Positions 6,093 through 63,813 of a stretch of 64,000 bases of DNA are shown here, piece by piece. Source of the stretch: Prosopocoilus inquinatus (lineage: Eukaryota > Arthropoda > Insecta > Coleoptera > Lucanidae); contig CM069877.1 of the NCBI GenBank assembly GCA_036172665.1, positions 28,235,001-28,299,000 on the forward strand, written 5' to 3'. Each line of letters begins with the position of its first letter. Position 1 is the stretch's first letter. A program made the translations under genes and the position numbers. The notes under the pieces were generated by a model. It was not told the origin of the DNA. It made no database searches and saw nothing but the letters and a program-made list of their open reading frames with translations.

Positions 6093-6884
6093 TATTATTG
6101 AGGTACCTTTTTAAGTAGAATCTAAATCTGTCATTCCATTTCATAGATAAAAGATATAATAGATGTCAAAGCCAACGTTGTATACTATGTGGAGCAACAA
6201 AATGCCCGCCTCACGCGGCCTGGTGTGAATTAAAAAAAAGGCGCGTAATTTAAAAATATTTCTGCGTTAACGGTTTAAGGATTGTTCAAGAAATTAAATA
6301 ATCTAATAAATTGAGCTGCATTCTTGCGCAAGATACTAGTTTAGGGCTATTCGAGAAGAATGAACGGACAATTTGTGATTTTCTTTCTATAAATTATTAC
6401 CACGTTTGCTCGGATCGTTTTTTGCTCCGGTGCTTAATAAGGCCGCGCGGCCGTGATAGCCGAAAAAGTGCACTTTTCGCTTATCATTCTCTCTTACCTT
6501 ATTTTTATCACAAATTGTCCTGTTCGTTCGCCTGGAATGGCCGCAAACGAAATTTAAACGTTTAATTAAGGAAGAAATCGAATTAATACTTTGGCTTCTG
6601 ACAACCGATTCCAAACTTTTCAAAATCAATAAAAGGTAACCATGGTAACTTAAAAATATGCTAAGGATTACAGATTACTATAAATACAATGCCATCACTG
6701 CCATCCCAGCGACCTGGGGGGAATTATAATTTTTTTTCTTATGGGCGCCATACTGGATTCTCATATTTTTAAATAAAGATTTTTTCTACGATTCTAACAA
6801 TATATCACACATTACGGTTGATTTGACTGTTTGATCAAAATTTCTAATTTTTTATTTTTACGAGGTGGAAACAATAAAGACTTT
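6093..6884. other. unassigned stretch with one inverted repeat
   Basis: It contains an inverted pair at about 6353-6385 and 6507-6537 (GAACGGACAATTTGTGAT and its complement), probably a small MITE. The 80-residue ORFs across it lie inside that hairpin and look like chance frames. The right end (6873-6884) is the left target duplication of the next element. Confidence 0.4.
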
Positions 6885-7039
6885 AAAAATTTTTGTTGCA
6901 AATCGTTTTTGATTGCAGTGAAAACATCGAGCAGCCTCTGTACAGCTGTTTCAGCCCTGCTTGGGGCTTCGTCAGCAGAGACTTAGCTGGACATTCCCAC
7001 TGCAAATAAAAACGACTTGTCCAATTTATTCGCAAATAA
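6885..7039 (-). mobile_element. hammerhead family A element, short copy
   Basis: A 155-bp insertion flanked by imperfect 11-12 bp direct repeats (AATAAAGACTTT at 6873-6884 and AATAAAGATTT at 7040-7050). On the minus strand it starts in the TTGCGAATAAATTGG segment and ends with the family terminus before AAAATTTTT. It holds one intact ribozyme (next entry). Confidence 0.75.
6927..6991 (-). ncRNA. hammerhead ribozyme, family A copy 1
   Basis: Read on the minus strand: inner stem I CTCTG, core CTGACGA, stem II AGCCC/GGGCT closed by a six-base loop, core GAAA, minimal stem III A-CAG/CTG-T, cleavable nucleotide A17, then CAGAG pairing with CTCTG. The outer stem I block is partly mutated (TCCAGC against GCTCGA). 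All invariant core positions of a type I hammerhead are present. The predicted cut falls between 6941 and 6940. Confidence 0.8.
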
Positions 7040-11149: not shown

Positions 11150-11370
11150 GCCGCCCTGCATGGAATGACTTATTATGTAGAAAACTGGCTTCAATTTGTC
11201 AATCCTAATGTATTTGCGATTATCCTTAGTCCAATCGTTTTGGTTTACAGTGGAATTCCCGAGCTACGCTTTTGCTGAAGAAGCCTCAAATGGGGTTGAA
11301 ACAGCTGCACAGAGGCTGCTCGGGGTTTCACTGCAATCGATGTCATCACAATTTTAAAAAGACTTGCAAC
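11150..11370 (+). mobile_element. hammerhead family A element, decayed and permuted copy
   Basis: The 3' segment (TGCATGG...GACTTATTATGTAG...CAATCCTAATG) is followed directly by the TTGCGA segment and the ribozyme on the same strand. This head-to-tail order is expected if the element can be copied from a circular or tandem template. No clear target duplication. Confidence 0.65.
11261..11322 (+). ncRNA. hammerhead ribozyme, family A copy 2, core broken
   Basis: CTGAAGA, stem II AGCCTC/GGGGTT, GAAA and CAG/CTG are present, but the nucleotides after stem III are CA instead of UC or UA, and inner stem I is mutated (CTTTTG). U16.1 is lost, so it should not cleave. Confidence 0.6.
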
Positions 11371-16254: not shown

Positions 16255-16306
16255 AAATATCTTCAGAAAAATTTTGTGCAAATCGTTTTTGATTGCAGTG
16301 AAAACC

Positions 16307-16370
16307 TCGAGCAGCCTCTGGACAGCTGTTTCAGCCCTGCTTGGGGCTTCTCCAGCAGAAACGTAGCTCC
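16307..16370 (-). ncRNA. hammerhead ribozyme, family A copy 3, core mutated
   Basis: It has the same fold as the other copies, but the first core strand reads CTGGAGA, replacing the invariant A6 by G. Stem I, stem II and GAAA are kept. It is predicted inactive. Confidence 0.7.
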
Positions 16371-16625
16371 ACATTTCCACTGCAAACAAAAACGACTTGT
16401 CCAATTTATTCTCAATTGCGATGTAAGACTGATGAACAGATAAAATAGCGACATCTTACTATCGCCTTTTGACCTGACGTTGCAGTAGGATAGACAAATT
16501 GAAGCGGGATTTGCTCCTAATAAGTCCCCCAGCGATAGTAAGATGTCGCTACTTTATCTGTTCATCACTCTTACATCGCAATTGCGAATAAATTGGACAA
16601 GTCGTTTTTGTTTGCAGTGGAAATG

Positions 16626-16690
16626 TCGAGCTACGTCTCTGCTGAAGAAGCCCCAAGCAGGGCTGAAACAGCTGTCCAGAGGCTGCTCGA
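16626..16690 (+). ncRNA. hammerhead ribozyme, family A copy 4, intact
   Basis: The 65 nt read in order: outer stem I TCGAGC, internal loop TACGT, inner stem I CTCTG, core CTGAAGA, stem II AGCCC with loop CAAGCA and GGGCT, core GAAA, stem III CAG/CTG closed by A15.1-U16.1, C17, inner stem I CAGAG, loop GCT, outer stem I GCTCGA. Every conserved position of a type I hammerhead is met. The palindromic stem III with no loop is as short as those reported for Penelope and retrozyme hammerheads. Predicted cut: after C16676. Confidence 0.88.
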
Positions 16691-16900
16691 GGTTTTCACT
16701 GCAATCAAAAACGATTTGCACAAAATTTTTCTAAAAATTTTCATTATGCTTTGACAGCAAGCATGGCTGCCTTGCATGGGGGACTTATTAGGAGCAAATC
16801 CCGCTTCAATTTGTCTATCCTACTGCAATGTCAGGTCAAAAAGCGATAGTAAGATGTCGCTATTTTATCTGTTAAAATATCTTCCTTTTCAGCAACTATA

Positions 16901-20206: not shown

Positions 20207-21185
20207 AAACGAGCCGTGACCCGTTAGGGCTTGGGTCATGTAGTAGTCGACTTCTCCTCCTGGTCCATTTTTACAGGTCTTTTATGAAGACCCTGGCCCA
20301 GGCGTCGTAGGCTTCCCAGCGTTTTTGCCATTCTACGAACATCGCTTTCCTAGCTAAGAACTTCGCTTCCTGTCCTTCGATGTAGATCCTCCTGCGTTCT
20401 TCAACTTGCAGCCGTATAGGGGGTATCTCGGCGATCGCTAATGCTGCGTCTGTCGAAACTGTTCTGTATGCGGATGTCACTCTGATGGCCGCCAGTCTGA
20501 CCATTCTATCCCATCAACTCGTGATACTTGTATCTCAAGGCCTTCTCCCATATAGGGGCTGCGTATAGTATAATTGAGGAGACCACTGTTGCCGATTCCT
20601 GGGGGACGCCGCATTTTATTTCGGTGATCCTGCCGTCTGGAGCGACGATCTCTCTTTCTTCCAGGTATGACGAAAATTTAATTCTGCGTCTCCATGACGC
20701 AGAATTAAATGAGATTTTACGTCAAATGCCACCAGTATGGAATACTCTCTATTTTTATCAGCCTTGCTTCTGATTTGCTTGACGATCTCCCGAACTTCTT
20801 CGAGGGCAGTAAGCGTGGATTTCCCTTTCCGCAAATCGTGCTGGTTCTTGCTGATAACGTTTTTGTTATCCAGGTCTTCGATAAGTCTCTCCCTTATGAG
20901 TGTTTCTAGCACTTTCCCTGCACAGTCCAAAAGACATATGGGCCTGTACGTGACCTCTTCGCCATCCTTTTTTGGTTTCTCTGTACGTACCAACTTGGCA
21001 ATTTCCAGATGCGGGGGAAATTGCCATTTCTCCAGCAGCCGTTGTAAACCTTCAGGTAGGCCTCAGGGTTCGCGTCTATTGTTGCCTTAACAACCTCGGG
21101 CGGTATGCCGTCCGGTCTAGGGGCTTTCCCTTTTTTTATTCTGCTGACTGCCTTTTCCAGCTCCTCTTTGGTATCTAGCACTAAT
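20207..21185 (-). pseudogene. R1-type non-LTR retrotransposon ORF2 fragment
   Basis: Reading on the minus strand: RIKKGKAPRPDGIPPEVV (the LINE RT motif KAPGPDGIP), then after a frameshift YRPICLLDCAGKVLETLI and KGKSTLTALEEVREIV, then GVPQESA where GVPQGS is usual. The palm with the YxDD box is deleted: the sequence jumps to YAAPIWEKAL and RVTSAYRTVSTDAALAIAE, the post-RT C-terminal region of R1-like elements. It ends near TQALTGHGSF, against the 0.94 kb repeat. Frameshifts, stops and the deletion make it dead. Confidence 0.82.
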
Positions 21186-24100
21186 TTCAAATCCGGGTCA
21201 TTCTCCTGGTCTCATCGCAGTTCTTCGTCTTGCCATTTGTCGTCAACAATGGCTGTCCTCGCAGTCGTGGCTACTTTTTCGTCCAAACGACTACAGTCCT
21301 TACAGTCTTCGGCACAGGGTCTTCTCGACAAAGCATCGGCATTTCGATGGCTAGTTCCTGCCCGATCCTGAATTTCAAAATCGTACTCCTGAAGTCGCTC
21401 GATCCACCGTGCAACTTGCCCTTCTGGGTTCTTGAAACGGAGAAGCCATTTTAGAGCGGCACGGTCGGTCCTCAGGAGGAAGCGTCTACCATACAAGTAT
21501 TTGTAGAAATGTTCTATCGTTTTCGACGGTTAGCATATCCCTTCTTGTGACGCAATAGTTTCGTTCCGGCTTTGATAGGACTTTACTGAACTAGCCGATC
21601 ACCTTCTCTTGCCCCTCTTGTATCTGGTCCAGTACGCCACCAATCCCAACGTTGCTAGCATCTGTGTCCACGATAAACTTGCCTTCCGGGAGAGGATAAC
21701 TCAGAATAGGAGCACTAATCAAGTATTGCTTTAGTTGTTCAAAACCAATTTGACACTGTTGGTCCCATTCAAATGGACGATCTTCTTCAGTGAGTTTTGT
21801 CAACGGCTTAGCAATGTCTGCAAATCCAGGAACGTAGCGCCGATAGTAAGTGCACAGACCAAGGAAACTCCTTATTTGGTGTTTATTTCTGGGAGTTGGC
21901 CAGTCTTTTACCACCTGAATCTTCACAGGGCGATTCCATTTGCATTAACAATGTGCCCCAGGTAATTCACTTCCTTCTGGAACAGGTGGCACTTCTTGAG
22001 GCTAAGCTTTAGTCTACCTCCGCGAAGCCACTGGAACACTCCTTCCAGGTTCCTCAGGTGGTCGTCGAACGTTTTTCCCACGACAATTATGTCGTCAAGG
22101 TACACCATGCACGTTGTCCAGGACAGACCTTTCAGAACCGTCTCCATTAACCTCTCGAATGTCGCCGGAGCATTACATAACCCGAATGGTATCACTGTGA
22201 ATTGCTACAGATCCATACCAATGGAAAACGCCGGCTTTTCTCGATTTTTAGGCGCCAGCTCCACTTGCCAATATCCACTCTTTAAGTCCAAAGTTGAGAA
22301 GATTTTTGAGCCGGCCAGGGTGTCCAGGGTATCATCAATCCGTGGCTGGGGATAGCTGTCCTTCTTGGTGACGTTGTTGAGTAACCGGTAGTCTACACAG
22401 AACCTGGTGGACACATCCTTCTTCACAAGCACTACTGGTGACGGCCAAGGGCTGCTTGATGGTTCTATTACATTATCCTTTTCCATCTCGCGAATAATGC
22501 GTTCCGCTTCCTCACGCTTCGCCAACGGTAATCGCCTTGGAGCTTGACGGATAGGTCTTTCTTCTCCAGTCTCTGTTTTGTGTTTCACGACATCAGTTCT
22601 TCCCTTGGAACCATTTTCTACACTCGAATACATCTTGACAGCGGCCGATCAGATTCTTTGCTTTTGTCTTCTGATCTAGAGTCAATTCCTGGCTGTTGAC
22701 ATAACCATTTCCCATAATTTCGTTGGGACATTTGCTTCTGGCACGTTTGCTTCAAGTTGGCGGGAGATGGAGGACACCATGGTGCAGCTTCCCAAGATGG
22801 TTCCTTTCTTGATATTGACGGAGAAACAATTGACGTTCACCAGGCGGACAGGTACTTCCTTCCTCGCCGTCAACAACATTTTCCCAACGAGGACTCCTCT
22901 TCCAATCTTCTGATTATAAGTATTAGGTTCAACCATAATGACTTGCCCATCTTGAAAAACACCATCCTTGCGTCGACGATAACCTCAGTCCTGCTGGGTA
23001 ATACAACGTCTTCAGCGAGGACTACTCGAGCGGCCACGTCTACTCGTTGATGTAGAACCAACTCCTCATTATTGACCGCCATCACGCCACGCTTTAAATC
23101 CAATTGAAACCCGTGGGCACACATGACGTCCATGCCCAAAATTGCCTCGTCCTCTGTGTCTGCTACCAGTGCACGGTGTTTTATTGTAGTTGAACCAATG
23201 GTGATGATAACCTCTACTTCTCTGTGGACAGTTGCTGATGTTCCAGTTGCAGTTTTCAGTCTCCACTTGGTTGGCTCGGTGCGTCCAGATGACTTGATGA
23301 CGTCGGGTCTTAGGATGGTCTTCGTCGCACCCGTATCCAACAACATGGTGTGAGGAATGTCATCAATGGTAACATCCACGAAGACACTGCTGGTTAACTG
23401 CCGTAGGGATATTACTTGGTTGGCTTTCGTCTTTGGGGGCCTTTGAATACGGGTCGACGTTTGCCCCTCTGCACCGACCCGGCTTAGTTTAACTGTGGCT
23501 TCCTTGGATCCTGTCTGGGCTTTGGACATCGCCTGCAAACGTGTCCTTCCTCCTGGCCGCACCAGCGGGTTCTTCTGCTTGAAGACCTGTTCCACAATGC
23601 GGCGAACATCCTCGGCGGTGGTATATTCCCCGGGTCGCTCCTTTATAGCAGATCCCACCTTGGCGTTAGCGGATTCTTCCTCTTCTTCCTCTTGGAAGTC
23701 CATAGCCGCTCGCACCTTGACATGCCCTCTTGAGACTCGTCTCGTCGCTTCAAATTCCAAGGCATAAGCCAGTGCGTTTTTGGACGTCTTCGGATGGGTC
23801 ATTCTCAATGCCTGCTGGTTGTCTGGGTCACGGATTCCATCTATGAAGGTCTGCACCGTCAAACATTTGAGGAATTCAACAGGAGCTGTGGGATATGCCA
23901 ACTGGGCCAGACGCGCTACGTCCGCTTCGAATTCCTGAAGACTTTCTCCGGATTTCTGACAGCGATTCCTCAACTGCGCATGGCATACCTCGGTCAGATG
24001 GGCCTGTCCGTAACGCATTTCCATCCTATTCACCAGCTTGTCGAAGTTTTCATGTTCCTCTGGCGACATCGTCTGTAGTATATCGATAGCGTCCCCTCTC

Positions 24101-25690: not shown

Positions 25691-25751
25691 AAATTTCAAA
25701 GCAAACTGTCTTCGATACTAACAAATGAAGAGCATTCACGCAAAACTTGAT

Positions 25752-26072
25752 AGTTTTAAAATTTTTTATTGCAAATCGTTTTTGATTGCAGTGAGAACCT
25801 CGAGCAGCCTCTGTACAGCTGTTTCAGCCCTGCTTGGGGCTTCTTCAGCAGAGACGTAGCTCGACATTCCTACTGCAAACAAAAACGATTTGTCCAATTT
25901 ATTCGCAAAAACGATTTGCAACAAATTTTTTTAAAACTTTCATTGTGCTTTGACAGCAAGCATGGCCGCCTTGCATGGGGGAGTTATTAGGAGGAAATCC
26001 GCTTCAGTTTGTCTATCCTACTGCAAGGTCAGGTCAAAAAGCGATCATAAGATGTCGCTGTTTTATCTGTTC
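25752..26072 (-). mobile_element. hammerhead family A element, 321-bp copy
   Basis: Flanked by the perfect 10-bp direct repeat AAAACTTGAT (25742-25751 and 26073-26082). The minus-strand half carries the ribozyme. At about 25908 it switches to the plus-strand 3' segment (GCTTTGACAGCAAGCATGGC ... GATGTCGCTGTTTTATC). Both family termini are therefore exactly placed. Confidence 0.9.
25800..25864 (-). ncRNA. hammerhead ribozyme, family A copy 5, intact
   Basis: It has the same 65-nt architecture as copy 4, with both stem I blocks complete (TCGAGC/GCTCGA and CTCTG/CAGAG), CTGAAGA, AGCCC/GGGCT, GAAA and CAG/CTG. The cleavable nucleotide is A (UA), which the NUH rule allows. Confidence 0.87.
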
Positions 26073-26283
26073 AAAACTTGATAAGTCAAAAATGACGAAC
26101 TTCGAGTTAGACATGGAATCAAGGGTTTATTATTGAGTTGAATCATCTGGTGAGGCCTAAGTCATTCATTTCTTGTGTAATATATCATAACATATCAGAA
26201 ATTAATCACAAAGCAACACAAAACCTGTGGCTGTAATCCAAATAAATAGTGAGAAAACCCCTCGACCACATTAATTCACTGAA

Positions 26284-26326
26284 AGCGAATACGTATTTCG
26301 GTAACGAAGTTACCATCTTCAGCGCT
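26284..26326 (-). ncRNA. hammerhead-like motif, family B, minus arm
   Basis: AGCG, CTGAAGA, an extra U, stem II GGTAAC/GTTACC with loop TTC, GAAA, stem III TAC/GTA with A-U closing, U17, then CGCT pairing with AGCG. Identical to the plus arm. Stem I is only 4 bp before mismatches. Confidence 0.6.
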
Positions 26327-26352
26327 AAACTGATATAATTGAATATCAGTTT

Positions 26353-26395
26353 AGCGCTGAAGATGGTAACTTCGTTACCGAAATACGTATTCGCT
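26353..26395 (+). ncRNA. hammerhead-like motif, family B, plus arm
   Basis: It has the same 43-nt motif as the minus arm. A single nucleotide (U) lies between A9 of CUGANGA and the first stem II pair. Predicted cut after U26391. Activity is uncertain because the NUH triplet is AUU and stem I is short. Confidence 0.6.
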
Positions 26396-26561
26396 TTCAG
26401 TGAATTAATGTGGTCGAGGGGTTTTCTCACTATTTATATCAGAAATTAATTAAGCAGGCCTTACCAGACAATGCAACTCAATAATAAACCCTTGGTTCAT
26501 GTCCAACTCCAAGTTCGCTATTTTTGACTTAACAAGTCTTGCGTGAATGCTCTTCAAATGT

Positions 26562-29588: not shown

Positions 29589-30058
29589 TTACCTCCGACT
29601 CCTACTTACACATTTTCCCGAATGTTTCGTTTCAATGACATAGCCCTTGGAGCATGCATCCTGCATCATGTGACACCACGAGGGGTATGTGCTGTTGTTG
29701 GTGCCACAAATGGGTCCGCTCATGTGTCTCGGCTTGCACCGATGCATGCACGTGACGCATCGCGGCGTCCCCGTTTCTGGGTCACTCAGGCAGTTCTGGG
29801 TCTCCTTACATTTGATTGTGGTGCAGGTAGCTGATTTTTGGCAGGGACCTTTGTAAGCCAGCGGGATGGCTTTGCCTTTTCGACACGCCTTCTCCCTCAG
29901 GTGGCAAGTACTCGGGTATGTGAGACCATCGGCGGCGCACACTTGACGGCGTACAGGTGCTGCAGGACATCTTCTTGTACATTTGACACAGTGAGGGCTT
30001 AGATTTTGGTCCAGAAGGCAGTGCTTTCCTGACGGACAAGTAATTTTATCACAGGAAC
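29589..30058 (-). CDS. Fs: follistatin, terminal exon (two follistatin/Kazal modules)
   Basis: Follistatin is a secreted antagonist that binds activin/BMP-type ligands. The acceptor TTGTTGCAG precedes codon remainder GT, which with A from exon 43714-43941 gives Ser. Module 1: CDKITCPSGKHCLLDQN with CVKC, then a Kazal domain CPAAP...VCAADGLTYPSTC...GPC. Module 2: CTTIKCKETQNCLSDPETG with CVTC, then Kazal CKPRHMSGPICGTNNSTYPS with C...GKC. The cysteine spacing is intact. It ends VSRSRR and a stop at 29589-29591. The Kazal domains lack an obvious protease-inhibitory reactive loop, as usual in follistatins. The next exon is 13.7 kb upstream. Confidence 0.9.
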
Positions 30059-30384
30059 CTGCAACAATTAAGCAAACGATTATGTGGACTCCTTTATAGA
30101 CGATTGAACAACATCTACAAAACAACATATATCATTAATAACCAAAATTACAATAATATATCAATAATTTCCTCCGATACGTTCTAAATATGTATGTTAA
30201 TTATTAGATTCCTGTTAGATTTATTTGTAGAAATGAATTTTACCTCTATGTTAAGGCGATCATATTTACATATAAATAGTGCTCACCGGCGTAATGCCAA
30301 AAAACTAAGCGTAGATTTACAAATATTCCGTTTTGATTTCTGGTCGTCATACGATCGGTTACTAAATTCACCCTGTTAAGATAA

Positions 30385-36905: not shown

Positions 36906-36918
36906 CATAAGGTTTTCT

Positions 36919-37412
36919 AGAAAAATTTTTGTGCAAATCGTTTTTGATTGCAGTGAGAACCTCGAGCAGCCTCTGGACAGCTGTTTCAGCCCTGCTTGGG
37001 GCTTCTTCAGCAGAAACGTAGCTCGACATTCCCACTGCAGACCAAAAACGACTTGCCCAATTTATTCGCAAATGCGATGTAAGAATGATGAACATATAAA
37101 ATAGCGACATCTTACTATCGCTTTTTGACCTAACATTGCAGTAGGATAGACAAATTGAAGCGGGATTTGCTCCTAATGAGTCCCCCATGCAAGGCGGCCA
37201 TGCTTGCTGTCAAAGCATAATGAAAGATTTTAGAAAACTGCAATCAAAAACGATTTGCACAAAATTTTTCTAAAATCTTTCATTATGCTTTGACAGCAAG
37301 CATGGCCGCCTTGCATGGGGGACTCATTAGGAGCAAATCCCGCTTCAATTTGTCTATCCTACTGCAATGTTAGGTCAAAAAGCGATAGTAAGATGTCGCT
37401 ATTTTATATGTT
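36919..37412. mobile_element. hammerhead family A element with 150-bp perfect hairpin
   Basis: Flanked by the 13-bp direct repeat CATAAGGTTTTCT (36906-36918 and 37413-37425). The ribozyme half is on the minus strand. 37088-37237 and 37266-37415 are uninterrupted inverted copies of 150 bp around a 28-bp spacer; the last bases of the right arm overlap the duplication. Confidence 0.9.
36962..37026 (-). ncRNA. hammerhead ribozyme, family A copy 6, intact
   Basis: All elements are kept: TCGAGC/GCTCGA, TTCTG against CAGAG (one U-G pair), CTGAAGA, AGCCC/GGGCT, GAAA, CAG/CTG and UC. Predicted cut at 36976/36975. Confidence 0.86.
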
Positions 37413-37638
37413 CATAAGGTTTTCTGTTGCAAAAGAACAACATGAGGACTGATACCAAACTATATTTTATTGAATATGACTAAACCAATTAATGAAAATT
37501 AATTTGATTTATTATAGTTTCAAACATAAATACCTTTTTGCTGAAAAAGTTCAAATAACAATTTTATGTGTAATCAAGTAGTTAATTTGTTGATGTGGTA
37601 GTTATAGCATTCCAGTGATGTTGAATATACCTGAAAAG

Positions 37639-37796
37639 TTTTAAGAAATTTTGTTGCAAATCGTTTTTGACAGCAAGCATGGCCACCTTGCATGGGGGGT
37701 GACTTATTATGTAGCAAACCCGCTTCAATTTCTTTATCCTTATGCAATGTTAGGTCAAAAAGCGATCGTAGGATGTCGCTCTTTTATCTATTCAAC
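37639..37796 (+). mobile_element. hammerhead family A element, ribozyme-less copy
   Basis: A 158-bp insertion flanked by ACCTGAAAAG (37629-37638 and 37797-37806). It has only the two termini: TTGCAAATCG on the left and the 3' segment ending GATGTCGCTCTTTTATC. The ribozyme has been deleted. Confidence 0.8.
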
Positions 37797-43351: not shown

Positions 43352-43713
43352 ACGCTGATACTGCGGATCTTACATTTTGTAGACACCAAATAAGGTGAAC
43401 GGAACAGCTTAAAAATGCATCGAATCGTTTTTCTCCGCAAATATCGGCGGATATCCGCGGATACGGTCACGGATACGAATATTCGGAACATCACTACTTT
43501 AAAGAGATGGGTGAATGGATTGATTTACCAAACTAGTTCACTTGACGCGAACTAAGTCTATCCATAGAATGATAAATTGAGTTTTGGTTTTATGTAAATA
43601 ATAAATTAGTAATTGATGCAACAGAAAAAAGAAATTATTGATTGTATTACTGGTTTTCCTTAACGGGTTCTTAGTGTTAATTTCTACAAATAATGACGAT
43701 CCGTTCCACTTAC

Positions 43714-43941
43714 TCTGACAAGCGCCGTAGTATGCAACGGTTAAATTAGTGGATCGGCGCCTGCACGCCCTCTTTCTGAGGCGGCAGAGGTTTTTGTAGG
43801 TGCGTCCGTCGGTGCCGCAGACGGGGCCCTTGCTGTGACTCTTCTTAGCATCCTTGCACTTAGGCGAGCAGATGCATTTGGGACGACCTCGACGCAGGAC
43901 ACATACCTTATCGGTACCGCACTCGACACCGTTACAAGTAT
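43714..43941 (-). CDS. Fs: follistatin, internal exon (follistatin/Kazal module)
   Basis: The acceptor GTTGCAG and donor A|GTAAGT bound 228 bp. With the G carried from the upstream exon it reads DTCNGVECGTDKVCVLRRGR, PKCICSPKCKD, then VCGTDGRTYKNLCRLRKRAC and TVAYYGACQ, which is one FOLN subdomain and one Kazal subdomain with all cysteines. NLT is a possible glycosylation site. This frame differs from the longest ORF over the region (43741-44118), which is an out-of-phase shadow. Confidence 0.9.
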
Positions 43942-44446
43942 CTGCAACAGAGACGAATGAATTCGTGGCGTAGGCGTTGACACTTTAGAAAGTTCGATGC
44001 AGCGGCGAATAAAAATCGCATAAAGTACATTGAACGTTTGCTGGCACGAAACTGCTTTTGTGCGGACATTGCTGCTGGTGCCAGTTATTATATTACATTG
44101 TCGCAATAACTCCGCCACTGCAACTTACACAATACATTTTAACATTAATTTGTAATTAAGTGTAGTCTCCTTTGGAAAAAAGGAATTTCCAGAAATAGAA
44201 TTTTATTAAAAGTTTTGTGATTTCACAACCGTGATTAAACAGACAAAACAATTACGACTAATTAATTATATTAAAGCTATTAAAACAGTAATCTACAATG
44301 TTTCAACTGCAGCTCCGAAAGAAGATGCTTGTGATTCGTTCGAAATACAAATCTAATCTCATCGACTTTAGTTTAGAAAGGAGTATTTATAATTTCTTAA
44401 TTAATGAGTGGGAGTAAGAAAAAGCGATGCGGCTACGAGGCGGCGC

Positions 44447-55730: not shown

Positions 55731-56440
55731 CTGTAAAGCAAAAAAAATTTTATTGCATTTGTTTTCTGTTAATTAATGCCCACAATTTTCCGACGACATA
55801 TTTTAAAGCGTTTGCTGCCAGTCGGTTAGATTGGAATGAGGTTCTCAAGCATTTTCTGTATAGCTATTTCGGCGCTAAAAGGGGGCCTTATCAATAAAAG
55901 AGTAGCTTGAAAACTCCTCTGCAATCTCATCAACTCGCGTGACTTGCGCAGACTACAGCTGACGTAGCGACATCGTGCGACCGTAGTTTAGGGTCAAAAT
56001 TATGGCTGCACGATATCGCGACTTAAGCTCTAATAAAACACACATTAGTTTAAAGAGTTCATAATTAATGCAGTTCTCCGACGAGCGCTTTGTCGGTTAA
56101 GTAGAGAAACGTCTATGACTCACTTGATCGCAAAATCATAACACAGTGTTTGGCTCTACACTCGCAGTGCATAAAATGTAGTTACTCTGACCATGACCGG
56201 AAGTTTATTTAAGAACGCAACGAAATTGAATAATATTATCCTTGGTCTTTCATTCATTTATGAATATTTCTGTTTTTCGGTTAAATCAGTTAAAAGTGAA
56301 TTGGGGACAGAAAAGAAGAAAAGCAGTTAACGAAAAAAAGGACAACAGCGAATATAGGTAGTCTTGTTATTTCTTTTTGTGAAACTTCTTTATTTCAATA
56401 GAACTCGTGGAAAATTGTGGAATTTGTTTTGTTTGGAATA
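55731..56440. other. upstream of the follistatin TB exon, unassigned
   Basis: Presumed first intron. No signal-peptide exon recognised. Confidence 0.4.
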
Positions 56441-57600: not shown

Positions 57601-58304
57601 ACACCATCTGTCTCACGCTTGTAAGAATTTAGTGTAGTACAAAAGTCAAAGCAGCGTTTACTTGTTTACTTCAAAACAAACGTACAGTGTGACTACACGA
57701 GAATTCCTACCCCCTTTAACTCTTTTATTTTTGATTTCAGGAAAAACTGTTTAATACAAAACTTATAGGGACTAATTCTGTGTTCCCACAAAAAAGACAA
57801 TTAATGGTTGGATAAACGTGATATAAACAAAACTTAAGTTTTTTTAAATGGAACACCCTGTATATTATTACGATTTTCGATTCTAAATTACATTCTACTG
57901 GGACTAGTATATAATAAAACCAATAATATAGAAGGTGTCAATAAAATATTTCCTATTTAATTTATTCTGTTTTTGAATTTTAGAAATAGAAAATTTGAAT
58001 AATGATCCTTTTATACTAAGAGATGTGACTCAAAACATGTTAAAAAGATTTACACCTCCTGTAAAAAAAATATGTTTTGCATTAAATTCATTTTTTAAAG
58101 TTTTTTCGTTTCTAGTTAAAAAGTTGAATTTAAAAAACATGTAAATCATTTTAATATGTTAATGGTAAAATTTTATTTAATGTTATTTTATTTAAAACCA
58201 AAACTTCGTTTGTTTTTTTGAGCAACCGACGCTCAATTGTTTGTTGTGAATATCTGTAGCAGTTAAATAGTGAGAAAACCCCTCGACCACATTAATTCAC
58301 TGAA

Positions 58305-58347
58305 AGCGAATACGTATTTCGGTAACGAAGTTACCATCTTCAGCGCT
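58305..58347 (-). ncRNA. hammerhead-like motif, family B, minus arm
   Basis: Identical to 26284-26326: CTGAAGA, bulged U, GGTAAC/GTTACC, GAAA, TAC/GTA. Confidence 0.6.
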
Positions 58348-58363
58348 AAACTGATGTCAGTTT

Positions 58364-58406
58364 AGCGCTGAAGATGGTAACTTCGTTACCGAAATACGTA
58401 TTCGCT
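58364..58406 (+). ncRNA. hammerhead-like motif, family B, plus arm
   Basis: Identical to 26353-26395. The two motifs in one transcript would pair with each other as a long hairpin, competing with ribozyme folding. Confidence 0.6.
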
Positions 58407-58848
58407 TTCAGTGAATTAATGTGGTCGAGGGGTTTTCTCACTATTTATTTGGATTACAGCCACAGGTTTTGTGTTGCTTTGTGATTATCTGTAGCAGTAC
58501 TGAAATAAATTCTACAACTTCTTTTATCTTTTCTTCTGTCTAAAATCAACAATAAAAAAAAAATTAAGCAGGAATTATTTTATAGACACCTTCTACGTTA
58601 TAAGTTTTATTATACATGTAGTCCCATTAGAATTTTATTTCGAATCGAAAAACGTAATAATATACAGGATGTTCCTTTTAAAAAGTTTTGTTTAGTTTAT
58701 ATCTCGTTTATCAAACAATCAATTGTTTTTCTGTGAGCATGTAGAGAAACTTTGAATTAGACCCTTTAAGTTTTGTATTTTGTAATTTTTTCCTAAAATC
58801 AAAAATAAAAGAGCTAAAAGGGGTAGGAATTCTCGCGTAGTCACCCTG

Positions 58849-59591
58849 TACTTACATATGTAAACATTTTTCAGGTCGAGGCGGAAATAATTTTTTGAAA
58901 CAAGTTCAACAATTGTGTTAAAAATATCTACAACTCCCTTTTACCCATAACTGTGGAGAATTTCACTTTGCCATTTCTCTCTGTTCAGTTTGTTGAAGGA
59001 ATTGTGTAATACATAATACGTTTCCGAAGTTCTATTCAGAATGAGATAACTGATAATCGGAAATATGTTTAGCTAGAAAGAAAAAGTTTCACCGTCTGTG
59101 AACACCTGCAGAAATACGGTGAGATCACGTTGTTTATACACTAGCGATTATTACTGATCAACCGGTATTGTGGTCGATAAACATGGACAATTAATTATAA
59201 TTACGAGACTCGGCGAATAATTAGCGGCCGCGTTCAGCACGTGCGTCGTAAACTTTAGAAAATGTGCAATGATTTCGCTTAATTACCGCAGGACGTCTGG
59301 TCGCAGGTCGCTAAGCACGCTGCTTTTTATTTTGCGAAATGCAGTCAGGTATGATAGCGACCGGCCAATTCTATCTGCATTGCTGCGTTTGCCTTGCCGT
59401 AATTATTTCAGTTTCCGGTTACGCACTTACATGTTAATCCGATTTTTCTTCTTGGCGTTAAAATATAGAACGGAGGTTCCTGTTCTTACCTGGAATTGAA
59501 TTTTCTGCGGACGGTTCAGGAACTCGCGCAAAATAGTTTCATTTCCACTTCACCTTCAGACGTATTTTATATTATGCAACAAAACAAAGTA
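58849..59591. other. unassigned stretch
   Basis: Includes a somewhat GC-rich piece at 59200-59420 with a 76-codon ORF that resembles nothing known. Confidence 0.35.
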
Positions 59592-59744
59592 TACCGGGTG
59601 GAAAGTTTCAAACCCGAACATAACAAACTTGCATTGAAAAGTACGTTTCTGTAGATTACTGCTCTCCATTTAAACGCACAAAAATAGTAGTGGTCTCGAA
59701 GGAAAGAGAAAATTATCGCCAATTTTGTCATGCTAAAATTTATT

Positions 59745-60105
59745 AACATATAAAATAGCGACATCTTACTATCGCTTTTTGACCTAACATTGCAGTAGGA
59801 TAGACAAATTGAAGCGGGATTTGCTCCTAATGAGTCCCCCATGCAAGGCGGCCATGCTTGCTGTCAATTTGTCTATCCTACTGCAATGTTAGGTCAAAAA
59901 GCGATAGTAAGATGTCGCTATTTTATATGTTCATCATTCTCACATCGCATTTGCGAATAAATTGGGCAAGTCGTTTTTGGTCTGCAATGGGAATGTCTAA
60001 ATGAGCTACGTTTCTGCTGAAGAAGCCCCAAGCAGGGCTGAAACAGCTGTCCAGAGGCTGCTCGAGGTTCTCACTGCAATCAAAAACAATTTGCACAAAA
60101 TTTTT
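59745..60105 (+). mobile_element. hammerhead family A element, 361-bp copy
   Basis: Flanked by the perfect 12-bp direct repeat CTAAAATTTATT (59733-59744 and 60106-60117). The left part is a hairpin (68-bp perfect arms, 59745-59812 and 59864-59931), followed by the ribozyme on the plus strand and the terminus CAAAATTTTT. Confidence 0.9.
60003..60065 (+). ncRNA. hammerhead ribozyme, family A copy 7, intact core
   Basis: GAGC/GCTC outer stem, TTCTG/CAGAG inner stem, CTGAAGA, AGCCC/GGGCT, GAAA, CAG/CTG, UC. Predicted cut after C60051. Confidence 0.85.
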
Positions 60106-60237
60106 CTAAAATTTATTGTTAAATGTCAATATATTCGCGATAAAAAATAAACTTTTAAATTTTGAATAAATTTAGTTTCCTTAGAAACTGAAAATATTTA
60201 CAATTGAAAATAATTTATACGTCACTCAATAAGAATC

Positions 60238-60993
60238 ATGAATAATTACACAGATCAAGAAAGGATTTTTATTTTGAAGACCTTTTATAGTGGCGTTGGA
60301 ATTCGGAAAGTACGAGATTTATTCTCTGTGAAATTCAATGACAGACCAATACCTTCTCTATCGACAATACACGCAGTAATAAAACGCGTTGAAGAAACAG
60401 GTAGCACACTTCCGAAAAAAGAGGTGGTATCTAAAAATATTATTTTAATCAATAATAAGTACTCCTATGAATACTTATTAGGCGCTCGAAGGAGAAATAA
60501 CGCTCAACTAGAAGAAATGGTTCTAGCAATGACGAATGCTGGACCAACTTTCAGTAGTAGGTACATAGGAAATTTAACATCCACATCGTATTTGGACCTT
60601 CTACTTAACGATATTGGTCCTGCTTTAGAAGAAGTTGCACGCGCTGATCAAGAGATTTGGTTTCAGTATGACGGGTGTCCTGCGCATTTTGGTGTGGAAA
60701 TAAGAAACTATCTAGATGCTGCTTTTCCTGACCATTGGATTGGACGTGGTGGAAGCATAAATTGGCCAGCCAGATCTCCTGATTTGGCACCGTGTGATTT
60801 CTTCTTGTGGGGCCATATCAAAAGCAAAATTTATAAAAATAGACATGAAAATCTGGATTCACTATGAGAATATATTAATGCAGAATGTCGTTCTATCACT
60901 GATAGACAATTATCCAATGTCCGAAATTGTTTTTATAATCGTTTAGGCTATTGTTTAGTACAAAGTGGTGGTTTATTTGAGGACCTGCTATAA
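60238..60993 (+). pseudogene. Tc1/mariner-superfamily transposase with internal deletion
   Basis: From ATG 60238: MNNYTDQERIFILKTFYSG begins an N-terminal helix-turn-helix (LSTIHAVIKRVEETGS). The usual linker and first catalytic Asp are deleted; the frame goes straight to NNAQLEEMVLAMTNAGPTF. It keeps the second Asp, EIWFQYDGCPAHFGVEIRNY, and the third motif INWPARSPDLAPCDFFLWGH. A TGA at 60865-60867 interrupts it; the original end is GGLFEDLL and TAA at 60991-60993. The intact family protein would be longer by about 100 residues. Dead. Confidence 0.85.
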
Positions 60994-62065
60994 AATATAA
61001 TTTATTAAGAACAATTTTAAATTCCAACGTTAAGTTTTAAAATTTTTATCATATGAATAATGTATAATTTTTAAATTACATATTTAGTTTAGTTTAGTTT
61101 ATTGTGTGTTAAACATAAAATAACAAATAAAATAACAAATAAACTTAATGAATAGTTAATAAGTTCATGCCTATATTAATTAATTAATGAGTGAGTTAAT
61201 AACATTAACATTATAAGTAGTTAATAACATATTAACAACATATTAACATAAATTAATTGAAGAAAAATAATTAAATAAGGAAAAAAGAAAAATAGAAAAA
61301 TAATTAAACATATCATATTTGTTTTTTTCATTTTCTATTTTTTTTATGTTCAATAGAGTGTTCAGTTCATTTAACTATTCGTTACTTTTCGACTGTCTAA
61401 AGGGTATACCTACAACTAGCCAGAGTACTGTTTCACAATTTCACTCTTCTCAAAGGAAAACGGAAGCCAGTAAAATAATTCATTAACATCTTTGAGAATG
61501 CACTAATTTCAATCAATATCTTATTAAAAATAATAATAATAATAATAATAAAAACAAAATAATAAGCTGTTTGTGGTTTCAGAAAGAAGATCAAAGATGA
61601 ATTGCATTTTAAATTTTATTACGGAACTGGCTCTGAAGCATGTAAGAGAATATAATTTAGGCAACAAAGATTGAAAGAAGGCATTTTTTATGATCAATTT
61701 ATGATTTATTTGTAAAAATACTGCTATACTTTCTCACTTGCATATTATTATTTTCTCTATTCATTGCAAGTTTGCCGTACTCGGGTTTGAAATTGTCGTT
61801 TCAGGTGACGTATAAATTATTTTCGTTAATTGAAGATTGTTGGCGTTTCTAAGGAAATGAAATTTTCATTTGAAATTTAAAAATTTAATTTTATCACTAA
61901 AATATTAACATTCAGCAATCATTTGAACATGATAATATTGGTCGTAATTTTCTCTTTCCTTTAAGGCCTTTACCATTTTTGTATCTTTACATGGCGAGCA
62001 GTAATCTACAGAAACGTACTTTTCAATGCATGTTTCTATGTTCGGGTTTGAAACTTTCCACCCGG

Positions 62066-63007
62066 TATGTGCAACAAACTAGACAAAATTAAGTCGAGGA
62101 ATATGCTAAGAGCGTCACATCAAAGTGTACCATATGTGTTGCAGACATTTTTTTTTATCTAGCGATTATTGCTTATCATTTCTTTATGACAGTGATGCAA
62201 TTTATTGTTATGACGAACAGTTCGAAACTATTCCATGGATTTGTAAATATCGTATAGAATAATATCAACAACATTTTTTATGTACGTTTACAGTTGAAAC
62301 TTAAAAGTTTAATGCCCGATTTCTTCATTTCCAGATAAATTTATCTATCAGATAATATCCTTAGAAACCGATGAGAAGTTAGCAATAACATTCCAGCAAT
62401 AAAATTATGAAATTTCAAAACACTGCCACCGCTAAAATAACGATCACAGATCAATAATATTTAATCTATTACAAAGAGTATAATGTGTAGATTCCCCTCA
62501 TATGAAGAAATTGAAAAAAATATTTGATATTAAGTTAACTATGACTATTTTAACGAGCATAAGTCATTTTTCATATATTGTACCAAAACAATTGCTTTCA
62601 CTGAAAATTTTCACGTAGTCATAAAGTAAACATACATATCTATTTAATAATGCCTTTAGAAAGTTTTAGCCGGTTGATTTAAAGTAATTAGAAAATTAAT
62701 TAAATATGGCATTCCCAGCAATAAAATAATATTAAATTTGAACGTCCATATCTTTTCACGCAGTATTCGCATAAACATTCTGTTTGTAGAATATGAAAGC
62801 ACAGATCGAAATCTATCGTTTAAACCACCCTCTGAGTTTTAGCCGGTTGATTTGAAGTAATTAGAAATTAATAAATTGCGACCTTTGCAACAATAAAAAA
62901 ATAACCACATTGCGCTTTGTGAATTATGGCCATGGTTTGAACTTTGCATTGAGTATACAGGGTGTTCAAAGTTTTTGTTATACGCACACAACAACGTTAT
63001 TATGGAA
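62066..63007. repeat. degenerate tandem repeat of about 175 bp and flank
   Basis: GTTTTAGCCGGTTGATTT(A/G)AAGTAATTAGAAA recurs at 62662 and 62835 (period 173), and CCAGCAATAAAAT-type blocks at about 62391, 62716 and 62893. The rest of the stretch is AT-rich without features. Confidence 0.55.
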
Positions 63008-63205
63008 AGTACAAAGTTTATTTAATCTCAAACCGGACAGAAAAATGAAGGGAAACACACTCAACGTTTCGCTATAGATTTATAGCTTCGACGAAGCTAT
63101 AAATCTATAGCGAAACGTTGAGTGTGTTTCCCTTCATTTTTCTGTCCGGTTTGAGATTAAATAAACTTTGTACTTACTATTTTCATCGGACAAGAACAAA
63201 CTTCA
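63008..63205. mobile_element. hammerhead family C fold-back, separate insertion
   Basis: Flanked by GTTATTATGGAA (62996-63007 and 63206-63217). 63007-63175 is an uninterrupted palindrome of 169 bp centred on 63091. Both arms have the stem II, GAAA and stem III strand but lack CTG of CUGACGA, so neither is a complete ribozyme. A 30-bp tail (ATTTTCATCGGACAAGAAC) matches the Penelope element at about 48945. Confidence 0.88.
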
Positions 63206-63335
63206 GTTATTATGGAAGGTACGAAATCGTTCAAATTGGCAAAAATATACTGCTTTTACTCAAAATTAGTAATTAAGCATTGTCCATGCGTAAGCTGACC
63301 GGATCAGTCAGATTACGATGAAATTCTCGATATGT

Positions 63336-63388
63336 TCTTCTTCTGATGAGGCCCTAATTAGGGCCGAAATCGCTATGAGAACCCTGTT
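63336..63388 (+). ncRNA. possible decayed hammerhead, fourth type
   Basis: CTGATGA, perfect stem II GGCCC/GGGCC around TAATTA, then GAAA occur in correct order and spacing. Stem III would be AUCG/CUAU with a mismatch, and the cleavage nucleotide would be G, which is not allowed. Probably a dead relic. Confidence 0.4.
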
Positions 63389-63590: not shown

Positions 63591-63813
63591 GCGATGCGTA
63601 ATTGTTCATTATTGCTGATGATTTGAACGATTTCCTACCTTAATAAAAATGAAGTTATTGTATGCATACAGTGTTTTCCAAAAGAAACGGATAAATTCTA
63701 TTGCGATGCGTAATTGTTCATTATTGCTGATGATTTGAACGATTTCCTACCTTAATAATAATGAAGTTATTGTATGTATACAGTGTTTCCCAAAAGAAAC
63801 GGATAAATTCTAT
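63591..63813. repeat. recent tandem duplication, 112 bp
   Basis: GCGATGCGTAATTGTTCATT starts both units (63591 and 63703). The two differ at only a few positions. Confidence 0.9.

Follow-up and report, generated by a model that had tools for sequence, protein, structure and literature searches.

A candidate retrozyme of Prosopocoilus inquinatus with a hammerhead-like motif and unlike insertion ends, and its possible mobilisation by a Penelope-like element

The 64-kb stretch of DNA analysed here (the window) contains dispersed copies of a short hairpin with the outline of a type I hammerhead ribozyme. This raises two questions: whether the motif is a hammerhead, and how the repeat that carries it inserts into the genome.

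The hammerhead motif in the window

The preliminary description had claimed seven copies in the window, five of them with an intact core. All seven were present, with 84-100% identity to the copy at 16626, and the five intact cores (16642+, 60017+, 37010-, 25848- and 6975-) were borne out. The copies occurred on both strands, had a common nested hairpin and contained the stems originally given for them. A strict motif scan of the window returned precisely the five intact copies, and 100 Markov-1 random windows gave 2 hits. Two copies absent from the preliminary description, J (55894-) and K (63343+), were recovered by a six-copy profile, which matched 55929-55802 (J, E 6e-10) and 63338-63376 (K, E 0.0013). 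The copies were as follows.

6933..6982, minus strand: hammerhead copy A; intact core, N7 is C, H17 is A
11268..11317, plus strand: hammerhead copy B; diverged, U16.1 changed to C (11275+)
16313..16362, minus strand: hammerhead copy C; core broken, A6 changed to G (16355-)
16635..16684, plus strand: hammerhead copy D; intact core, H17 is C
25806..25855, minus strand: hammerhead copy E; intact core, H17 is A
36968..37017, minus strand: hammerhead copy F; intact core
60010..60059, plus strand: hammerhead copy G; intact core
55851..55901, minus strand: older hammerhead copy J; C3 changed to T and G8 to A, stem III ATAGCTAT
63336..63379, plus strand: older hammerhead copy K (Rz2 type); canonical CTGATGAGGCCC/GGGCCGAAA

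Five of the seven previously described copies had all the features of a type I hammerhead (CUGANGA...GAAA, U16.1, H17 and three stems, open at stem I). Copy D read CTGAAGA-AGCCC/GGGCT-GAAA-ACAGCTGT. Its stem III had been described as very short and loopless; it was indeed very short, but in place of a loopless stem we found the 8-nt palindrome ACAGCTGT, which could fold back on itself as 2 bp closed by an AGCU loop or pair between two molecules over all 8 bp. The stem II pair 10.1-11.1 was A-U in the main family, the canonical hammerhead pair at this position being G-C. Copy K read CTGATGA-GGCCC/GGGCC-GAAA. Its core differed from that of D solely at N7, a free position in hammerheads, and its 10.1-11.1 pair was G-C instead of A-U, both sides having changed. 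K was found without requiring the core, as was J with its two core changes; a deletion seems to have removed the 3' side of stem I in K.

Comparison with Rfam, proposed earlier as a check on the motif, gave a mixed result, with sub-threshold matches to RF00163 and RF00008 on short stretches and none at gathering level. A scan returned no hammerhead at the gathering threshold, and even with the limit relaxed to E=10 none appeared anywhere in the window. Among short stretches, the best match was that of RF00163 to 16636-16682 (25.8 bits against a gathering threshold of 34, E 1.1e-4); RF00163 also matched 6935-6981 below threshold (20.3 bits, E 0.0066), RF00008 matched 63325-63375 with its pairs broken (19.8 bits, E 0.037), and HH9 matched 25794-25864 at chance level (13.4 bits, E 0.66). 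The short stretch 55820-55940 had no Rfam match up to E=1. In this window, a very large hammerhead family escapes the Rfam thresholds. A covariance model built from the nine copies, which match it by construction, recovered all nine, the lowest of them with 50 bits, while the best match beyond them reached 13.2 bits.

Copies of one repeat are not independent, so the independent evidence for the fold lies in both-sided pair changes between subfamilies. In the nine window copies (8 distinct), none of which was selected by its core, 96.8% of 93 stem cells paired, with 4 both-sided changes, and pairing fell to 26-51% when the partner was slid; the number of further pair types in these nine was no better than in shuffles (259/500). 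Across 25 motifs from four lineages (the main family, J, Rz2 and the Penelope type described below), 332/350 stem cells paired with 30 both-sided changes, against 35-49% paired and 0-8 both-sided changes in the slid control. Fifteen of these 25 motifs were Rz2 rows picked by a pattern that fixes the core and stem II. They represent 15 of the 22 rows of the Rz2 list; those dropped were L110, both L112 rows (one being a main-family copy), L117 at 631, both L120 rows and L122 at 710. K was omitted from the set because of its stem-I deletion. Identity was 97% in the core and 75% in the flanks (11/12 rows Rz2), figures in which core and stem II were selected and therefore carry no evidential weight.

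Stem III was palindromic in each lineage, with differing letters and length: ACAGCTGT in the main family, ATAGCTAT in J and ATACGTAT in the Penelope type, whose motif also has an extra U after A9. In Rz2 the commonest form, ATAGCGCTAT, is a 10-nt palindrome, and perfect palindromes were present in 7/18 rows. The main-family stem III was palindromic in 103/108, a count that is largely selected, as the search pattern fixes AGCT and the last T. The lowest-energy monomer fold concealed C3-U4-G5 (-30.1 against -19.5 kcal/mol); a consensus of a known family, partly filled in for this analysis, gave no hammerhead fold either.

Taken together, the motif is very probably a genuine hammerhead relative. 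Its very short, palindrome-closed stem III resembles that of the satellite hammerheads of newt and axolotl, which according to excerpts of PMC7229834 perform poorly as monomers and improve when they dimerise; the beetle motif differs from those, as the same excerpts present them, in sequence, in host, in the A-U at 10.1-11.1 of the main family and in the 10-nt palindrome of Rz2.

The 312-nt unit and a co-resident Penelope-like element

The genome searched was an assembly of 649,647,856 bases in 173 contigs. A pattern combining the core, stem II and AGCT gave 7,785 + 7,780 = 15,565 matches genome-wide, the Rz2 pattern 109 and the exact Penelope-type motif 741; each reversed pattern gave 0. An exact-pattern scan of viral contigs also returned 0 matches. 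The published P. inquinatus assembly is given as 649.73 Mb in 174 scaffolds with a GC content of 35.67%, and its annotation as including six ribozymes and 42% unclassified repeats (PMC11271282, in excerpt).

Direct repeats at 311-312 bp were found in the genome match list and in the fetched loci. One of these, the 531-nt tandem L012, has no inverted partner, and its unit measured 312 nt from predicted cut site to predicted cut site, with a GC content of 0.429. The 312-nt ring had no stop-free run of more than 103 aa, so the repeat does not itself encode a protein with reverse transcriptase (RT) and GIY-YIG domains. Folded as a circle, the unit reached -112.1 kcal/mol, whereas 60 dinucleotide shuffles averaged -75.1 (z -6.0). 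It is thus a non-coding tandem unit within the ~150-450 bp of metazoan non-LTR retrozymes, with a type I hammerhead. Such retrozymes are described in the excerpted text of PMC7229834 as tandem elements of ~170-400 nt with GC <50%, no LTR and, when present, target site duplications (TSDs) of >4 bp; one sentence of that text names insects as carriers. Both the hammerhead and the retrozyme are further members of already known kinds.

The Rz2 type also forms an array of its own. L122 (contig C7, 50480600-50482900) is a satellite-like Rz2-type tandem array with seven matches whose spacing alternates between 185 bp and about 286-292 bp. As a reference ring for Rz2, the 335-bp unit taken from L120 was rejected as unrepresentative, other Rz2 loci aligning to it in short pieces, mostly round the hammerhead; because of this short-piece alignment, the L120 ring gave no readout of Rz2 insertion ends.

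A search of the genome for GIY-YIG domains matched all 150 scored of 2,232 candidates, many of them as -/+ pairs in long open frames. At L103 there were two inverted 788-aa frames, and the one tested carried RVT_1 (322-514) and GIY-YIG (688-770). The Penelope-like element has its own hammerhead-like motif in its pseudo-LTR, and two fragments of it lie in the window.

26203..26442: Penelope-type pseudo-LTR fragment; hammerhead-like motifs on both strands (26357+, 26322-)
58264..58488: Penelope-type pseudo-LTR fragment; hammerhead-like motifs on both strands (58368+, 58343-)

These fragments at 26.3 and 58.3 kb account for the MIR161 matches of the Rfam search, in which the sub-threshold microRNA-family matches sit on long inverted repeats. 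The preliminary description had assigned the type I hammerhead, with its dimer-type stem III, to mobile repeats of the retrozyme or Penelope kind; the palindromic stem III, the direct tandems, the TSDs and the co-resident Penelope-like element agree with this.

The ends of the Penelope-like element were analysed at 25 loci (5 by eye and 20 more) picked as close -/+ pairs. At all five loci read by eye, one end stopped at ...TCTCACTATTTA and the other ~40 nt further on, between TSDs of 12, 12, 15, 12 and 12 bp. Of the 20 further pairs, 19 were resolvable at both ends, and each of the 19 had one end with the tail and one without, one no-tail end being counted as such at a measured 34 against a preset limit of 33. 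The tail was on the left in 10 and on the right in 9, TSDs were 11-16 bp, and the TSD score was passed by 19/19 pairs compared with 1/342 mismatched pairs. The tail was therefore on exactly one side in 24/24 resolvable pairs. BLAST of the retrozyme unit against the Penelope-like element at five loci revealed no similarity, the hits at L105 and L106 lying outside the element; a short stretch (TCGAGG..TCTCACT) looks alike in the two by eye.

Insertion ends and a proposed route of insertion

Ring mapping of 88 pieces (80 fetched loci and 8 window stretches) yielded 96 units. All 80 loci lay within the first 6 Mb of contig C1; they were picked for an intact or near-intact hammerhead, 75 from the core/stem-II/AGCT match list and 5 from another genome pattern list. 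Twenty were picked mostly for two close matches, which inflates the two-ended share and not the choice between like and unlike ends. Most sampled insertions were head-to-head inverted pairs between 12-13-bp duplications, an architecture absent from the preliminary description. The insertions in the window were as follows, with the strand given where one applies.

6881..7039, minus strand: insertion A; one-ended, 5'-truncated, flanked by an 8-bp repeat, AATAAAGA
16265..16874: insertion CD; inverted pair carrying two hammerheads, 10-bp AAATATCTTC at 16255-16264 and 16875-16884 (missed by the automatic TSD search)
25753..26071: insertion E; ring ends 53 / 199, 12-bp TSD (25741-25752, 26072-26083)
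36919..37412: insertion F; ring ends 60 / 200, 13-bp TSD (36906-36918, 37413-37425)
37639..37796: insertion H, same family without a hammerhead; ring ends 67 / 202, 10-bp TSD
59745..60105: insertion G; ring ends 208 / 61, 12-bp TSD, inside the transposon-like element 59591-62068

Two outward sense-3' ends were present in 73 of the 96 units, the remaining 23 having one outward 3' end or less clear ends. The two ends were unlike, one at ring 50-80 and the other at ring 188-230, in 66/73 two-ended insertions, the two possible orders being represented by 35 and 31. Like ends comprised one 200/200 unit and zero 60/60, and six units had one end outside both ring intervals (at 104, 186, 49, 175, 181 and 160). 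If each end were an independent even choice, at least 66 unlike units among the 67 that fit the intervals would have a probability of 5e-19. Arms primed at 60 nearly always reach the hammerhead (83/85 measured 50 nt or more and could thus take in the predicted cut site), so sampling by hammerhead favours 60/60 insertions and does not hide them. A TSD was scored in 65/73 two-ended insertions (8/73 had none scored), against 3/73 in a control with a misplaced right end. Its length was 12 bp in 36 and 13 bp in 16 (52/65), longer than the 4 bp that TSDs of metazoan retrozymes exceed.

The inner junctions were head to head, and 59/74 abutted or overlapped by 1-11 nt. Only 3 near-identical pairs were found among 63 junctions, which indicates that nearly every insertion formed its own junction; a foldback master copied as a unit was rejected for this reason. 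The two arms start at different ring positions and are not mirror arms. Arms longer than one unit made up 22/148, the arm in L026 reaching 737 nt, and since they exceed one unit, their templates were circular or multimeric. Inner ends showed no enrichment at the predicted cut site (2/148), and 121/171 cDNA segments passed through that site; together these fit a circular, multimeric or uncleaved template. Insertion ends away from the predicted cut site can be compared with the lizard Penelope element, whose hammerhead mutants were still able to insert in vitro (PMC11167929). Both start sites (~60 and ~200) fell in unpaired A/U-rich stretches of the predicted circular fold.

The unit and its tandems, the hammerhead shape with its both-sided changes, the unlike ends, the TSDs, the scattered junctions and the Penelope-like ORF with its motif are read from the sequence itself. 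They could be joined by the following route, whose order of steps we infer. The repeat would be a non-autonomous 312-nt non-coding retrozyme with a palindromic stem III suited to action as a dimer. Its transcripts, predicted to self-cleave and circularise, would be circles or head-to-tail multimers, and the co-resident Penelope-like element may mobilise them in trans. The enzyme would cut the target in a staggered fashion, leaving 3' overhangs of ~12 nt. Both target 3' ends would prime on the element RNA, presumably one shared molecule, with one at ring ~60 and the other at ring ~200. The inner ends of the two antisense cDNAs would then be connected, in most cases through microhomology, giving a head-to-head pair between 12-13-bp TSDs. 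The autonomous element would follow an identical route with start sites ~40 nt apart, leaving a tail on exactly one side. Since BLAST at five loci gave no match of the unit to the Penelope-like element, the case for trans mobilisation is one of common architecture.

The unlike-end rule, which can be counted (66/73 for the retrozyme, 24/24 for the Penelope-like element), points to a two-sided mechanism, and we regard target-primed reverse transcription from both sides, each with its own fixed start site on the RNA, as likely. The whole chain, a non-autonomous metazoan retrozyme trans-mobilised by a Penelope-like element through two-sided priming, is probable, somewhat less firmly so. A broader proposal is close to evenly balanced and is made tentatively: that Penelope-like enzymes prime from two strands on a single, probably circular, ribozyme-processed RNA with two obligatory unlike start sites, one per strand. 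If true, one mechanism would cover the inversion of the pseudo-LTRs, the restriction of the tail to one side, a TSD length that hardly varies and the head-to-tail units. Retrozymes would then be RNAs that use the Penelope mechanism through a start-site pair of their own. The later steps of Penelope-like transposition are yet to be validated according to PMC11167929, and the unlike-end rule common to the Penelope-like element and the retrozyme was not found stated in the mostly open-access literature searched.

The closest competitor to a single shared RNA is a pair of template RNAs, one per target strand, on an asymmetric enzyme dimer. Some arms pass the other start site and continue round the ring (22/148 exceed one unit), which is awkward on one common circle and sits better with two RNAs, and a dimer is also the predicted form of the lizard enzyme (PMC11167929); a single RNA with each of its sites used once is, however, the simplest account of the unlike-end rule. 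We consider two templates quite possible, though on the whole we lean away from them.

It is also conceivable, though we think it unlikely, that the hairpin is kept as an RNA recognition signal for the Penelope-like enzyme, the ribozyme being vestigial or unused in transposition. The inner ends away from the predicted cut site, the segments that cross it (121/171), the A-U at 10.1-11.1 and the monomer fold that conceals the core would all suit such a signal, as would the lizard hammerhead, which requires protein for cleavage and is dispensable for insertion in vitro, mutants still inserting (PMC11167929). Against this, the core letters of K stayed fixed while stems II and III changed both-sidedly and N7 varied, the stem III palindrome has different letters in each lineage, and the head-to-tail units suggest a circular or multimeric RNA.

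Snap-back self-priming, in place of priming by both target strands, has been proposed for rotifer Penelope elements, whose inverted repeats have junction palindromes (PMC3846280, in excerpt), and the copies here are likewise head-to-head; it should, by our reasoning, give mirror arms with like outer ends, whereas the ends were unlike in 66/73 and 24/24 and the arms begin at different ring positions, and we rejected it as highly improbable. A foldback DNA transposon or MITE with a loop that is hammerhead-like by chance would account for the strong inverted repeats, the sub-threshold microRNA-family matches and the lack of a hammerhead at the Rfam threshold, but is scarcely credible and was rejected because the ends (ring ~60 and ring ~200) differ in sequence and are thus not terminal inverted repeats, direct 312-bp tandems exist, most insertions have their own junction and pairs changed on both sides.

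The beetle repeat and the co-resident element can also be set beside known systems. The beetle repeat is like the metazoan retrozymes of PMC7229834, as excerpted, in its non-coding tandem unit, type I hammerhead, predicted self-paired circle and the presence of a Penelope-like element in the genome. It is unlike them, in that they are described there as plain tandems and the beetle copies are mostly head-to-head with two fixed unlike ends; in addition, the beetle circles are predicted ones. The beetle Penelope-like element resembles published ones (PMC11167929, PMC3846280 and PMC7761336, in the portions available) in having RT and GIY-YIG in one ORF, a hammerhead-like motif in the pseudo-LTR, head-to-head copies, a tail, a TSD and two starts. 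In the excerpted account of the rotifer elements, pseudo-LTRs are head-to-head and the tail is optional on one of them (PMC3846280), whereas in the beetle it was on exactly one side in 24/24. The lizard enzyme cuts and extends both strands, and two internal start sites bracket its tail; in vitro, the start sites were identical on both strands, with no strand difference (PMC11167929). The beetle retrozyme differs from Penelope elements in being itself non-coding and in having start sites 140 nt apart.

Other features of the window

The transposon-like element at 59591-62068 has inverted ends and a DUF4817 ORF; it is split by insertion G, the flanks of which align with the other end of the element. 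A palindromic repeat lies at 63007-63175, and a related pattern, CTGACGAAGCTATAAATCTATAGCGAAA, recurs in a genome pattern list. The CTGACGAAGCTATAAATCTATAGCGAAA family is hammerhead-like, but an unpaired A adjoins A9, and it was taken as another foldback repeat. A 112-bp unit is present at 63591-63813 in two head-to-tail copies that match at 97%. Additionally, the regions 191-1342, 2149-2565, 20616-22648, 29589-30131 and 43538-43984 contain Mos1-type transposase pieces, two reverse-transcriptase ORFs, a ligand-gated-channel exon and two Kazal-domain ORFs. One of the Kazal-domain ORFs is closest to scarab beetle follistatins (Oryctes 75% and Onthophagus 71% identity).
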